DNA from: Chloroflexi bacterium TSY
GTDB lineage: Bacteria > Chloroflexota > Anaerolineae > Caldilineales > Caldilineaceae
DNA length: 59,153 bases
Direction of reading: 5' to 3'
Assembly: GCA_019217005.1 (NCBI GenBank)
Contig: JAHBNG010000094.1
Location: 1 to 59,153 of the forward strand
Position numbers and translations under genes: made by a program. Shown here one piece after another: positions 13,962-52,778 of the stretch. The notes beneath the pieces are model-generated. The model was given only the letters and a program-made list of their open reading frames with translations, searched no databases and was not told the DNA's origin. Each line of letters starts with the position of its first letter. Positions within the stretch are counted from its first letter, which is position 1.

Positions 13962-15551
13962 ATGTATGCTGACCTCGTCATGACAAACGGGAATATTCGG
14001 ACAATGGATCGCAAGATTCCACAGGTCGATGCACTTGCAATTTCTGGCAGTAGAATCCTTGCAATGGGTGGCAACGCGGAGATAAGCACTTTGTTAAAGG
14101 CTGGCGGACGCACAATCGATCTGAATGGACGTCTGGTACTTCCAGGTTTTATTGATGCACACATACACTTTATGTCATATGGTCTTAGTTTACAAGAGAT
14201 CGATTTGGCAGGCGTGCCGTCCTTGGCTCTTGCACTCGAGCGAGTAGCAGCCCGTGCAGCGAAGACACCTCCCGATCAATGGTTGATTGGCCGTGGTTGG
14301 GATCAGGTGCAATGGGGAACTACTTTTCCAACCCGTCATGATCTTGATTGCGTGGCGCCCGAACGCCCCATCTTTTTGCGTCGCAAGTGTGGACATGTAG
14401 GATGGGCCAACTCACGGGCCATGAAATTAGGCAATATTTCGAAAACCACTCCCGATCCAGCAGGTGGTGAAATCGACCGCGATCCCGCCACGGGTGAGCC
14501 AACGGGTATCTTCAAAGAACGAGCCATGCAACTCATCGCAGACTTGCAACCAGCCGCAACTGAGGACCAAGCGCTTGACGCCGTCCGACGGGCCATTTCG
14601 CATGTTCACAAGATGGGTATTGTAGGCGTTCACAACATGGAGGACGCCCAAGCGCTGCGAGCCTTTCAGCGATTACGCAAACGAGGTGAACTCTCATTGC
14701 GTCTTCTACAACAAATCCCCGAGGTTGACCTGGATGCAGCGATTCAAGTTGGCATCCATTCTGGCTTTGGCGATGATTGGATTCGGATCGGAGCCGTCAA
14801 AATTTTCTCGGATGGTGCTCTCGGTGCACGCACAGCATTGATGGTTGACCCTTACGAGAATGAACCCGACAACATCGGTATTGCTGTTGCTACAGCGGAC
14901 CATCTTAAGCGACAAGTAGATAAAGCCGCACGTGCGGGGCTTGCCGTTCACATTCACGCCATCGGAGATCTGGCGAACCGTAATGTTTTGGATGCCATCG
15001 AATTCACTCGCAAAGCCAAAGTAGGTCTTCATTTACGTCACCGGATCGAACATGCCCAAGTCCTTCACCCTGATGATGTGGACCGATTTGCGGCATTGGG
15101 CGTCATTCCGTCTATGCAGCCAATTCATTGTACACAAGACATTGATGCTGCCAATGCCAATTGGGGAGAGCGTAGTCGTTTGGCGTATGCGTGGAGTAGT
15201 CTGCTCAGTACGGGTGCGCATCTGGCCTTTGGTTCGGACGCGCCAGTCGAAACGCCTGACGTATTGCAAGGAATTTATGCTGCCGTGGTCAGACGTCGTG
15301 CCAACGGGTACCCTGGACCGGACGGATGGTATCCGGAAGAATCGATTAGCGTAGAGGAAGCGGTTCATGCATATACTGTAGGGGCAGCATTTGCAGCAGG
15401 TGAAGAAATGGTTAAGGGATCGATTACACCAGGCAAATTAGCAGATCTAGTTGTCTTATCTAAAGATATCTTCACGTCAGAACCAGAGGCAATTCTGGAG
15501 ACCAAGATAGATGCAACGATTGTCGATGGCAGAGTAGTCTTTGAACGATAA
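13962..15551 (+). CDS. Amidohydrolase family 3 protein (YtcJ-like)
   Basis: The 529-residue metal-dependent hydrolase has the family 3 layout. The N-terminal beta domain is MYADLVMTNGNIRTMDR. The metal-binding HxH lies in PGFIDAHIHFMSYG, the later His motifs in LAVHIHAIGDLANRN and HLRHRIEHAQVLHP, and the catalytic Asp in LAFGSDAPVETP. The C-terminal return to the beta domain is ITPGKLADLVVLSKD. Known relatives include N-substituted formamide deformylase and AepA-like proteins; substrates are mostly unknown. The protein has no signal peptide. The peroxiredoxin-like gene starts 33 bp after its stop, so the two are probably cotranscribed. Confidence 0.9.
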   Translation: MYADLVMTNGNIRTMDRKIPQVDALAISGSRILAMGGNAEISTLLKAGGRTIDLNGRLVLPGFIDAHIHFMSYGLSLQEIDLAGVPSLALALERVAARAAKTPPDQWLIGRGWDQVQWGTTFPTRHDLDCVAPERPIFLRRKCGHVGWANSRAMKLGNISKTTPDPAGGEIDRDPATGEPTGIFKERAMQLIADLQPAATEDQALDAVRRAISHVHKMGIVGVHNMEDAQALRAFQRLRKRGELSLRLLQQIPEVDLDAAIQVGIHSGFGDDWIRIGAVKIFSDGALGARTALMVDPYENEPDNIGIAVATADHLKRQVDKAARAGLAVHIHAIGDLANRNVLDAIEFTRKAKVGLHLRHRIEHAQVLHPDDVDRFAALGVIPSMQPIHCTQDIDAANANWGERSRLAYAWSSLLSTGAHLAFGSDAPVETPDVLQGIYAAVVRRRANGYPGPDGWYPEESISVEEAVHAYTVGAAFAAGEEMVKGSITPGKLADLVVLSKDIFTSEPEAILETKIDATIVDGRVVFER

Positions 15552-15584
15552 CATTCATGTAGCAACGGAATCATCGAGGAAACA

Positions 15585-16073
15585 ATGGCTCAAACAAACT
15601 CACCTAAACTTGATGTTGGCGATCAGTTCCCCACAATGACCCTCAACCTGGCAGATGGTCGTCGTTTGACTTTACCAGATGATCTTACGGCTGAATATAC
15701 AATTTTTCTTGGTTATCGAGGCAAGTGGTGAAGCCACTGTCGACGCCAGTTGGCGGATTTCCAAGAAAATCTAGCTGAGTTGGAACAGCGTAATGCAACT
15801 GTTTTGGCAGCTTCTGTCGATTCTCAAGAAGATGCGCAGGAATTGATAGATACTCTTCAATTGACCTACCCAGTTGCCTATGGATTGGATCACATGACAT
15901 TTGCTGAACAGACTGGGGCCTTTTATGAGACGCGACGCAGTATTATCCACGCAACTGGTTTCCTGATTGGCTCAAACGGCCAGCTAGTTGGTTCCGTCTA
16001 TAGCGCGAGCAATATTGGTCGTTATCGAGCAATAGATTGTATACGCGTCATCGATTTTTTCAATAAACAATAG
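15585..16073 (+). CDS. Peroxiredoxin-like protein, candidate selenoprotein (UGA at codon 49)
   Basis: Read through one in-frame TGA (15729-15731), the gene encodes 162 residues of an AhpC/TSA-type thioredoxin-fold protein: GDQFPTMTLNLADGRRL, then FLGYRGKW-U-SHCRRQLADF, then AASVDSQEDAQELI and a C-terminal TGFLIGSNGQLVG. In homologues the family pattern is YRG-W-C-x-x-C-RRQL, so the UGA replaces exactly the peroxidatic cysteine and makes a U-x-x-C motif. Both halves are intact and in frame; codon use does not change. The ATG at 15585 has GAGGA 5 nt upstream. A hairpin with an AGTT loop follows the UGA, as expected for a bacterial SECIS. No sel genes are in the window. If selenocysteine is not inserted, the alternative is a nonsense-mutated pseudogene. 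Confidence 0.75.
15729..15755 (+). promoter_or_regulatory. UGA codon and candidate bacterial SECIS hairpin
   Basis: After the UGA (15729-15731), 12 nt lead to CGCC-AGTT-GGCG (15744-15755). The stem is extended by a TC/GA pair across a 2-nt bulge. The apical loop begins 16 nt after the UGA and carries a GU, both within the range known for SelB-binding hairpins. Confidence 0.55.
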
Positions 16074-16106: not shown

Positions 16107-16514
16107 ATGATTGATACAAACAATATCGCCGAAGCAAATAACATCATTGGTGGACAATTAGAGAGTTGCTGTACTGATCCAATGACCGGATTTTATCGAG
16201 ACGGGTTTTGTCGTACTGGAGCCAATGATTATGGCATGCATGTAGTTTGTGTGCAGGTCACTGAGGAGTTTTTGAGCTTTTCGAAGTCGCAGGGGAATGA
16301 TCTGATCACGCCTGTGCCTGAGTATAGATTTCCAGGGCTTAAACCCGGGGATTGCTGGTGTCTTTGCGCATCCCGATGGCAGGAAGCATTTGAGGCGGGA
16401 GTTGCGCCACCAGTCAAGCTCTCTGCAACCCATATTTCAGCCTTGGAGTTTGTTTCGCTGGACGATCTAAAGAAGCATGCGTTAGATTTAGATGAATCTG
16501 AAATCTTTGAGTAA
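16107..16514 (+). CDS. DUF2237 family protein
   Basis: The 135-residue protein contains the family hallmarks CCTDPMTGFYRDGFC, the TGANDYGMHVVC stretch, EFLSFSKSQGNDLITP, the PEYRFPGLKPGDCWCLCASRW region and a C-terminal LSATH motif. The function of the family is unknown; the conserved cysteines and histidine suggest metal or thiol chemistry. The start has GAGGAGG about 11 nt upstream. It follows the candidate selenoprotein by 33 bp and is probably in the same transcript. Confidence 0.85.
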   Translation: MIDTNNIAEANNIIGGQLESCCTDPMTGFYRDGFCRTGANDYGMHVVCVQVTEEFLSFSKSQGNDLITPVPEYRFPGLKPGDCWCLCASRWQEAFEAGVAPPVKLSATHISALEFVSLDDLKKHALDLDESEIFE

Positions 16515-16518
16515 AAAG

Positions 16519-16591
16519 TACCCCCTCCAGGGATCGAACCTGGGACTCACGGTTTAGGAAACCGTAGCTCTGTCCACTGAGCTAAGGGGGC
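16519..16591 (-). tRNA. tRNA-Arg (anticodon CCU)
   Basis: On the minus strand the cloverleaf is clear: D arm GCTC ... GAGC, anticodon stem-loop ACGGT-TTCCTAA-ACCGT with CCT, T arm CCAGG-TTCGATC-CCTGG, and a seven-pair acceptor with a G-U first pair. The 3' CCA is not encoded. It converges on the DUF2237 gene. Confidence 0.95.
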
Positions 16592-17096: not shown

Positions 17097-18602
17097 CTTT
17101 ACTTTCTGGTAAAAGAAAAGAGATGAGGTGAGAAATGTGACAAAAAGCGGTTAGCGTTTCATCCTAAAGGTAGAGAACCCAAAAAGGAGGAAGGAATGCT
17201 AACCGCGCCAGAAATAACTATAGCAGTACTGATGAATGTATTGCAAGTAACGCCGGTGGGAACAAACGTAAATGTAATGCGTCTGATGTGGGCGATGATG
17301 AATGGGTCGTTTCTGAAAAGTCGAGGAGCAATCCATAGTGGATTGAGTGAAAGCGGGTTTGAAGATGAGGAGCTCCGGCGAAGCTGGTGGAGCTTTCGAT
17401 ATGGATCATGGGATATTGCAAGCCTGCTCTCATCGTGGCAAGAAGAAGTGGAGTGGAAAGGGGGAATGGGAGGCAAAAAAGTTAGAAGGATACCGAGTGA
17501 AAAGCATAGATATCACAGGGTTCTGGCGACCGAAGCTGCAAGGGAAAGTGAACCGACTCTATAACTCAACGGCTTGTCGGGCATTGCCCGCGCTCATCTT
17601 TGGAGTGATGATAAGCTCGGGGGGAGATAGGCGGGAAACGAGTGCCACTGCTCAAGGCAATCATGAGATGCGAGGTAGGCACAAAGGAAAGTGAGTTTCG
17701 GAAAAAGCTGCTGAAAGAGACGAAGAAATCACTGGAGTCAGACGAAGTGGCGGTGGTCGATGCCGGGTTTACAATCAGAGAAATGCTAGAAAGCGACGTC
17801 GACCGATTTGTCCTTCGGGAAGCGATTAACTGCACAGCGCGCCGCAATGAGTTACCCGAACGTAAGGAAAAAGGCAGACCACCCGAATATGGTGATATTG
17901 TGCGTCCGCTCTCTCGATGCTATAGGGGAAAGCGACTCGAGGCCACAACTCCAGACTCGTTTGGTCAATTTGTCTATAGTGGTCGCCTGATTCGCTATCA
18001 AGCATGGCACAATCTCGTCCCCAGGACAACCAAGGTGGATACAGCCAACCGCACCTATTCGATTTACGTCTTTCAGGATCCTGCTTATCACACACCTTTG
18101 GTTCTGGCGACCGTCATGGCTTTACAAGCTGAAACCATTTATCTTTTCTATCTGGAGCGCTGGCCTGTTGAACATCCCCCCTTGGCTTCCAAGCAGATGA
18201 TTGGCTTACATCGTCAATTTGTTCATGCCGATGAGGCTTGTTTCCGCTTACCTGAACTGGGGCTGCTGGCTGGCAATCTTCTTTCCCATTTAGCCGCTTC
18301 TCTTCCTCCCATACCGACTGGCTACTGGGATCGAGAGCCTCAAGCCACTCCCGGCAGGCTGCGCCGCGTTCTCTCGAGTGCTCTTTTTCCAACTCCCGAC
18401 CAACTCGACCCTGACTTTCGGAAAAAGGCCTCGGTTTCACACCATTTACCTAAAGGCGTTCTCGCTCATCGCCGCCTCAATGCCGCTGCTTAAACTAGCC
18501 GAGCACTATTTTTACATTTTATCCCGTTTTTTCAGGGTGGATTCTTTTTTCCGCCCCTTTCGGTTTGCCCTTTGTCACTCAAGCCTTTACCAGAAAGTAA
18601 AG
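17097..18602 (+). mobile_element. Insertion sequence with DDE transposase, copy 1
   Basis: This 1506-bp element has terminal inverted repeats CTTTACTTTCTGGTAAA and TTTACCAGAAAGTAAAG and is flanked by the 5-bp direct repeat TTGTA (17092-17096 and 18603-18607). A second copy (55303-56807) is nearly identical and has its own 5-bp target duplication, so the boundaries are firm. It lies 107 bp upstream of the MoxR gene. Confidence 0.9.
17196..18493 (+). pseudogene. IS4-superfamily-like transposase, two frameshifts
   Basis: The transposase would be about 431 residues, with DDE residues in VKSIDITGFWRP, EVAVVDAGFTIRE and LFYLERWPVEHPP. Compared with copy 2, it has one extra G in the G-run near 17460 and one in the G-run near 17622, which puts it out of frame twice. 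The C-terminal part (17642-18493) is open. The family could not be fixed beyond DDE/IS4-like. Confidence 0.8.
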
Positions 18603-43368: not shown

Positions 43369-44887
<1,519 letters not shown>

Positions 44888-45020
44888 ATTACTTTACAAC
44901 AGAACCTTTTTCTGTCTTACCACTCTTCAATTGTTAATGTACATTTTCTCTTCATTGCCCTACAAAATAATCTCACACCAAGCTATTAAAGATTCATTTT
45001 GCTTCTAGGGCACGAAAAAA

Positions 45021-51419: not shown

Positions 51420-52778
51420 TTAATAACAGACAGCAGAAAGTAAGGTGTTCACCTGAGAGGGAGAGAATAAACGAAGAGCAGGTGAAATGTGGGATGTCTG
51501 GAAAAGGAAATGGGACCATAAGCGGCGGCGAACCAGAGAGAGGAGGTCATGGAAGGAGGCGTGAGTCTTGTGATACCAAGCAGCTTGAGGCAAAGGGATA
51601 GAGCCATCAGGAGAGAAGGCATGAGCCATCAAAATGACAAGGCTGAAAAGACCAAAGAGAGCAGGAGTAGTGCGCTCAATGGCCAAGTCACTCCACTGGC
51701 GCTGAGTTTCGACACCGAGATGAGCCCTGGCTTCCTCGAAAGTGACTTCAATGGACCAGCGTTTGACGAAATCAGCGATGATGTGGGGGGGGCAGCCTGA
51801 TGAATGTCGGTGGAGAAGTAAGCGACGGTCTCAGCTTGGCCTTTGGGATCGCGGACTAAAACCCAGCGCAGAAGGAGCGGGGTAGTGCCAGTGGAGTACC
51901 AAAAAGGCAAGGCCAGTGGCCCAGTCGACGACTTCAGAGTCTCCACCATACCAGTCAATGCGGCAGCGGTGCCAACAGGTGGTTTGGAAGAGGGCGACAT
52001 CTGCCAGATTGGGCAGTCGCTGCCCAACGACAGGAGGACGACCAGGTCGTTTTGTGCCGTCAGGTTTCAAACGGGAGGGTGGATAGTCAAAGAGACGCGC
52101 ATCCAGTCGCAGAGGCCCAATCAAGGTGACTCCTTGGGATTGACAGCGCAAGCCCAACTCGATCACACTGTAAGCCCCATCGCCGATGAGCTTGATTTCT
52201 CGACCTGGCAAAGCTCGACGCAGCCAGGCCACCACCTGCATGGTTCGTTTCGCTACTGTCCGGTGGCGCTTGTTAAGCGTTTCGCTGACTTTCGGCGTTG
52301 TGAGTAAGACGCTCAGAAAGGGCAACGACCAGTAGAGGTCACTCCACGGCAACTTGACCACCACACAGAAGACCAGCCACCGCAATCCGCTCGTGCTTAC
52401 GTTCATCTTCCGGCCTGACGCCAGGCTATCTCGCCAGTGTCCTCGTTTGCTGATCTTGGGACCCCAGCGCCTTTCTAGCGTCTCGTCTACCGTTATCTCG
52501 ACTGGCGCTCCCATGACCACAAACGTATCCACAATCAAGTGCAGTAAGATATAGCTCAACATCAATCCATCCCACTTCGCTCGATTCAGCACATGGTGAT
52601 ACTTGGACCAGTCTCCCTCTTGCTCCAATCCCATCACTCTCAACGCCGCTGTCACCGTTCGTCTTCCCTTCGTTAACACCGTCCCTATCACCAAGACCAG
52701 TGCCTTTTGGTACGTCGGTTCTGTGAAGACTGGGCGAAAGCTCTCGAACAACGGGATTATTTCTGCTGGAAGGAACAT
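51420..52778 (-). pseudogene. IS701-like DDE transposase, frameshifted
   Basis: The N-terminal two-thirds is open (51831-52778) with the first Asp in VEITVDETLERRWGPK and the second in KLIGDGAYSVIELG. The remainder continues in two other frames: YSTGTTPLLLRWVLVRDPKG, then FVKRWSIEVTFEEARAHLGVETQ with the catalytic Glu, then LAIERTTPALFGLFSL. The breaks fall at a run of five T (about 51900) and a run of eight C (about 51790). Confidence 0.85.

Follow-up and report, generated by a model that had tools for sequence, protein, structure and literature searches.

Gene structure and predicted fold

The 59,153-nt stretch of DNA analysed here (referred to as the window) harbours on its forward strand a gene for a peroxiredoxin (Prx)-like oxidoreductase, the reading frame of which contains a UGA codon that most likely specifies selenocysteine (Sec, U). 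The gene region comprises the following features:

15576..15580 (+), GAGGA, resembling a ribosome-binding site, 4 nt before the ATG, read directly
15585..16073 (+), Prx-fold selenoprotein gene, 162 residues including U49, AhpC/TSA frame, stop codon TAG
15729..15731 (+), in-frame UGA at codon 49, most likely Sec; TGA in 12 and TGC in one of the 13 related loci
15738..15740 (+), TGT encoding C52, second residue of the U-x-x-C motif, matching the peroxiredoxin peroxidatic Cys in alignments

The frame (15585–16073) proceeds from the ATG through 48 codons to the single in-frame TGA, which is followed by 113 codons and the TAG. An initial annotation of this DNA had described the frame as open and conserved on both sides of the UGA and as preceded by a ribosome-binding site. 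Both descriptions agree with the present data: GAGGA is found ahead of the ATG with a 4-nt gap, the Pfam domain AhpC-TSA (PF00578) covers residues 11–134 (1.4e-19, 70.7 bits versus a cut-off of 26, with Cys set at position 49), and six genes from Chloroflexota share 60–63 % identity with the window protein over residues 1–156. The AlphaFold2 model, likewise calculated with Cys at position 49, has a mean predicted local distance difference test score (pLDDT) of 92.9 and a predicted template modelling score (pTM) of 0.89. Best Foldseek and VIA-align rows for the window protein are peroxiredoxins, and it possesses the peroxiredoxin fold.

Conservation of the UGA codon

A profile built from 17 close relatives, used to scan genome contigs, yielded 13 loci from separate genomes, comprising the six Chloroflexota genes and others with 37–48 % identity. 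Codon 49 is TGA in 12 of these loci (six Chloroflexota, five delta-type and one Tectomicrobia), the sole deviation being TGC in a member of the Acidimicrobiaceae (L012, genome G012). With TGA shared at this codon by 12 loci of separate genomes, chance or sequencing error is untenable. The proportion of 12 in 13 overstates the share of UGA in the wider family, because the scan patterns were derived from UGA-type relatives; among the rows seen, Cys forms dominate the wider family. Downstream of the UGA, the proportion of nonsynonymous differences (pN) is far below that of synonymous differences (pS), indicating purifying selection. A pseudogene reading, with the UGA due to nonsense mutation or misassembly of an ordinary Cys gene, would find some support in a Syntrophaceae locus (L010), in which two in-frame TAG codons accompany the UGA and which has a degraded appearance. 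It is, however, contradicted by the shared position of the UGA in 12 of the 13 loci as well as by the purifying selection after it, and was rejected as very improbable. In a further locus (L013) the frame diverges downstream of the UGA position. L010 and L013 were retained for the hairpin counts, but excluded from the 12 UGA genes of the residue tally and from the tree.

The residue at position 49 was furthermore examined in 125 full-length homologues, consisting of 123 database proteins together with L012 and L050; proteins below 135 aa were excluded. The database proteins were based on the best 120 of 4414 profile matches from 7999 scored candidates, and two entries probably correspond to loci considered here (P0066 to the L012 gene, P0081 to the L049 gene). 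Position 49 is occupied by Cys in 118 and by Trp in 7 of the 125 homologues and by no other residue, and the neighbouring W48 and C52 are invariant in all of them. C52 is also retained in each of the 12 UGA genes examined. The rows with Trp most likely represent TGA codons called under a genetic code with TGA as Trp. Comparison with Cys-containing homologues, which the initial annotation had proposed as a check, thus places Cys opposite the UGA, and the Cys genes of L012, L049 and L050 are unbroken.

Among the first-round database matches, 41 of 51 align solely past codon 49 (one of the 41 being the window's own fragment), a pattern anticipated for genes truncated at a stop codon that was misread. 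The gene hence shows how such genes get truncated in databases, the DNA having been seen for a minority of these matches. The same fragments, together with the existence of a 107-codon open reading frame (ORF), would also be in line with two genes, namely a 48-residue peptide and a 107-residue protein re-initiated from the TTG at 15750. Both halves, however, form one Prx domain according to Pfam and AlphaFold2, the second piece would be devoid of C52, and the Cys homologues are unbroken. Two separate genes were therefore rejected as extremely improbable.

At a threshold of 1e-20, the gene is present in 7 of 46 genomes of the relatives' order, in all cases with one TGA. A search at class level (1e-10) retrieved matches in 8 of 298 genomes, two of which were assigned to the family of the window gene (G003 with 61 % and G219 with 40 % identity, both with UGA), while four lack an internal stop. 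The remaining two (L031 of G093 and L032 of G264) represent a more distant gene of redoxin type, whose in-frame UGA lies in the motif YRGQT-U-G-P-C and is followed by the hairpin GCAGAUC-GUG-GAUCUGC; the product is probably another selenoprotein. The viral contigs searched yielded no relative. On a plasmid of Deinococcus sp. QL22 (L051), the annotation of a homologue comprises two overlapping genes, suggestive of a frameshift.

RNA hairpin downstream of the UGA

Immediately downstream of the UGA, the following element was detected:

15744..15755 (+), candidate bacterial selenocysteine insertion sequence (SECIS) hairpin CGCC-AGUU-GGCG, occupying the position of the hairpin in the relatives with a one-base slip

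In the relatives, the sequence downstream of the UGA is under constraint at the RNA level. Among the six Chloroflexota genes, pS amounts to 0.085 in codons 50–62 versus 0.432 elsewhere (about fivefold drop), and the segment starting at codon 50 displays the lowest pS of 132 overlapping 13-codon segments. A hairpin of 6 bp is common to 14 aligned sequences (13 distinct), with the loop AGUU in 13 of the 14 rows. Across the 14 sequences, 92.3 % of the cells are paired, three pairs show two-sided changes, and none of 500 shuffles attained as high a covariation score.

In the window itself, the inverted repeat CGCC-AGTT-GGCG begins 12 nt past the UGA. The corresponding hairpin has by itself an energy of -6.6 kcal/mol, with an ensemble probability of about 0.5 % within a 45-nt segment, and its exact form in the window is presumptive. 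The hairpin reported in the initial annotation thus exists at the distance given there, but a different fold is predicted to have the lowest energy. SelD genes of eight relatives were also read for a common SECIS shape, and no loop shared with the window gene was seen among them.

Selenocysteine machinery in related genomes

Components of Sec synthesis and insertion were counted as matches over curated cut-offs in the genomes of the 13 loci. SelB was detected in all 12 UGA genomes, tRNA-Sec in 11 (missing in G009), SelD in 11 (missing in G002) and SelA in 10 (missing in G002 and G013), with all four present together in 9. The three genomes with missing parts are bins and may be incomplete. In the Cys genome G012, a 1.8 Mb and possibly incomplete bin, none of the four components exceeded its cut-off. 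ARAGORN assigned tRNA-SeC(tca) to the 11 best places among the 14 loci scanned and tRNA-Ser or tRNA-Leu to the other three loci; the place over the tRNA-Sec cut-off in L027 (G013) is a tRNA-Ser by this program. Control genomes passed the cut-offs for tRNA-Sec in 5, SelA in 1, SelB in 2 and SelD in 2 of 14 cases, so that the specificity of the tRNA-Sec cut-off is incomplete. Within the order holding the six nearest relatives, tRNA-Sec exceeded the cut-off in 41 of 46 genomes. Absence of selB or tRNA-Sec had been named in the initial annotation as the finding that would speak against Sec; examined in the genomes of the relatives, this point came out in favour of Sec. In each of the 11 genomes with SelD over the cut-off, a single in-frame TGA is also present in the SelD gene, and the motif ACAG-U-ASKL occurs in the five Chloroflexota SelD genes read (among L041–L048).

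UGA as stop codon in the window

Stop codons were counted for 30 mechanically defined and largely non-overlapping ORFs of at least 200 aa in the window. TGA terminates 7 of them. Genes for biotin carboxylase, D-xylonate dehydratase and an OmpR-type response regulator are among the seven, with matches spanning the greater part of each. UGA therefore serves as a normal stop elsewhere in the window, as had been stated initially. This bears on the possibility that the organism generally translates UGA as Trp or a different standard residue, to which the 7 homologues with Trp at position 49 might point. In view of the recognisable genes closed by UGA in the window, the Cys in the other 118 homologues and the Sec machinery of the relatives, this reading was rejected and is given hardly any probability.

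Another of the 7 TGA-ended ORFs (51831–52778, minus strand) codes for an interrupted IS701-type transposase (NCBIfam NF049999, Pfam DDE_5), with 136 open codons continuing beyond its TGA. It is most likely a decayed insertion sequence and not a selenoprotein.

Source organism and assignment of codon 49

The source of the window was placed by means of its ribosomal RNA:

43369..44888 (-), 16S rRNA gene, closest full-length match 89 % to G006

The matching genome (G006, Caldilineaceae) is that of locus L006, and the identity of 89 % extends over the length of the window gene. All other 16S matches of at least 1,200 bases, from the same order and the sample of 298 genomes of the class, show at most 88 % identity. 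The order of all six nearest relatives was taken as Caldilineales. From the 16S match and the frequency of tRNA-Sec in this order, the source is probably a Caldilineales-like member of the Chloroflexota, in which Sec is probably decoded.

It is regarded as highly probable that codon 49 specifies Sec in a Prx-like oxidoreductase, on the basis of the continuous frame, the conserved UGA, the Prx fold, the position of the UxxC motif, and the RNA-level constraint and Sec machinery of the relatives. The following observations weigh against it. The gene occurs in just 7 of the 46 genomes of the relatives' order. In the 45-nt segment, a different hairpin (loop GCCA) constitutes the lowest-energy fold with -10.8 kcal/mol, for which reason the window hairpin is weak evidence by itself. 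In the register of the relatives, 3 of the 6 hairpin pairs form in the window, and pS of the window versus the six relatives is 0.70–0.93 in codons 50–62 and no lower than elsewhere, synonymous change being saturated at this distance. As to the covariation, the shuffle control ignores the tree, the main pair switches between A-U and G-C largely along clade lines, and the measure of further pair types was not above the shuffles (306 of 500). Upon removal of L029, two pairs with two-sided changes remain, and 6 of 500 shuffles score as high. Rfam reported no SECIS family for positions 15600–15900, but one chance match at E=5. A tRNA-Sec search of the 59-kb window was negative, and no SelA, SelB or SelD was among the NCBIfam matches listed (1e-10) for its 30 large ORFs, the lists comprising the best 25 matches for six of these (kinase, regulator, amidase or aminotransferase ORFs). 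Insertion of Sec in the source organism would hence be deduced from its relatives, and the catalytic cycle including the substrate is predicted from homology alone.

Active site and proposed mechanism

The five listed alignments of the family profile to solved peroxiredoxins represent four different proteins (two being chains of 5ovq). In all five, Y-R-G-x-W-U-x-x-C aligns on H-P-[GA]-D-F-T-P-V-C. U49 therefore corresponds to the Thr of the PxxxTxxC motif, and C52 to the peroxidatic position. The initial assignment of Sec to codon 49 is strongly supported by the relatives (conservation of the UGA, Sec machinery and RNA constraint). Its further claim that the UGA replaces the peroxidatic Cys is not supported, as the residue aligned with the peroxidatic position is C52, still encoded by TGT and three residues away.

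The predicted active site is U49-S-H-C52, a thioredoxin-like UxxC motif in which U stands where TxxC has its Thr, as in the Prx-like UxxC family. UGA 49 would be decoded by SelB and tRNA-Sec, directed by the RNA hairpin in the codons directly downstream. The U49 selenol would most likely attack an oxidised substrate (disulfide or peroxide), C52 would resolve the intermediate as a selenenylsulfide, and a cellular thiol donor would then reduce the latter. Such a thiol-disulfide-type exchange with U49 attacking first is the most likely mechanism, although the identity of the first-attacking residue is much less certain than Sec at codon 49.

The main rival, which would likewise involve Sec at codon 49, is a true peroxidase with C52 as peroxidatic residue and U49 as resolving selenol; it is consistent with the alignment of C52 on the peroxidatic position. 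The PxxxT/SxxC motif of peroxiredoxins is, however, present in the window protein with respect to C52 alone, Pro being replaced by R45 and Thr by U49. The catalytic Arg of peroxiredoxins aligns with A123 (sequence alignment to 6q5v). Among the 12 UGA genes, this column holds Ala in 9 and Pro in 3, and Arg occurs there in none of the 125 other homologues. UxxC is, moreover, typical of thiol-disulfide exchange. A peroxidase of this kind is accordingly rather unlikely. Unlikely too would be a hybrid site combining peroxiredoxin chemistry at C52 with thioredoxin-like selenenylsulfide chemistry at U49, with Sec inserted via the one-base-slipped hairpin in the lineage of the window.

Relation to known selenoprotein families

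An excerpt of the Sargasso Sea paper (PMC1088965) describes a Prx-like family with distant homology to Prx, in which UXXC takes the place of the TXXU found in Sec-containing Prx. Table 1 of a 2026 review (PMC13188914) lists a 'Prx-like thiol:disulfide oxidoreductase' with PF00578 and UxxC/UxxU. Since the peroxiredoxin motif is incomplete, the window gene is not classed as a peroxiredoxin proper, and very probably represents a member of these known Prx-like UxxC selenoproteins. Shared properties are the AhpC/TSA domain, UxxC in place of TxxC/TxxU, the existence of Cys homologues and, in the relatives, a UGA followed by a hairpin with covariation; in the window, a hairpin likewise follows the UGA, but another fold has the lower energy. 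Differences are the probable Caldilineales-like host as well as the shorter hairpin of the window, slipped by one base. The putative kinship to the reference sequence of this family (WP_010940744.1) is based on domain, motif and published description.

TxxU peroxiredoxins (PF00578) have the same fold, but their Sec replaces the peroxidatic Cys, whereas in the window protein Sec stands in for Thr and the peroxidatic Cys is kept. The two placements of Sec within one fold, at Thr and at the peroxidatic residue, form a useful pair for studying what an enzyme gains from selenium. Thiol-disulfide oxidoreductases of the ResA/TlpA type resemble the window protein in the W-C-x-x-C site within a thioredoxin-like fold. 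They differ in that the window protein has peroxiredoxins as best Foldseek and VIA-align rows and AhpC-TSA as Pfam domain; the NCBIfam ResA model scores 36 bits (6.3e-09) versus a cut-off of 170. The peroxiredoxin-like proteins of cd02970 probably possess a U/CxxC-type site. As listed in Table 1 of the 2026 review (PMC13188914), the selenoprotein form of this family is UxxS, unlike the UxxC of the window protein.

In a quick tree of 137 proteins, calculated with column 49 removed, the window protein falls into a group of 9 rows (7 with UGA, 2 with Trp) with a support of 100 in the Shimodaira-Hasegawa-like approximate likelihood ratio test (SH-aLRT). The distribution of UGA/Trp versus Cys demands five changes on this tree, at least two of which are forced by supported branches. 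Should the Trp rows indeed be UGA, repeated exchange between Sec and Cys has taken place. Three Cys-to-Sec events are given for the Prx-like family in Table 1 of PMC1794560, and Table 2 of this 2006 survey credits Chloroflexota with 3 selenoproteins in 3 families. Among the titles and abstract openings listed on selenoproteins of Chloroflexi, Caldilinea or Anaerolineae, none dealt with the window gene, and an earlier report of it may exist. The gene adds a well-supported selenoprotein gene for Chloroflexota.

Gene neighbourhood

Two genes flank the selenoprotein gene on the same strand and are given for context:

13962..15551 (+), Amidohydro_3 protein, upstream neighbour, ending 33 nt before the selenoprotein gene
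16107..16514 (+), DUF2237 protein, downstream neighbour, starting 33 nt after the selenoprotein gene

A tblastn search of 31 window proteins (the 30 large ORFs and DUF2237) against L001–L013 revealed no match at 1e-8. Within these loci of 3.8–10.5 kb, no gene context in common with the relatives was therefore seen, and the genomic context does not help in assigning a function. A gene for tRNA-Arg(CCT) is located at 16518–16591 on the opposite strand, just past the DUF2237 gene. Further downstream (17642–18493, plus strand), a frame of 283 codons without Pfam or NCBIfam match resembles, by eye, a transposase remnant.
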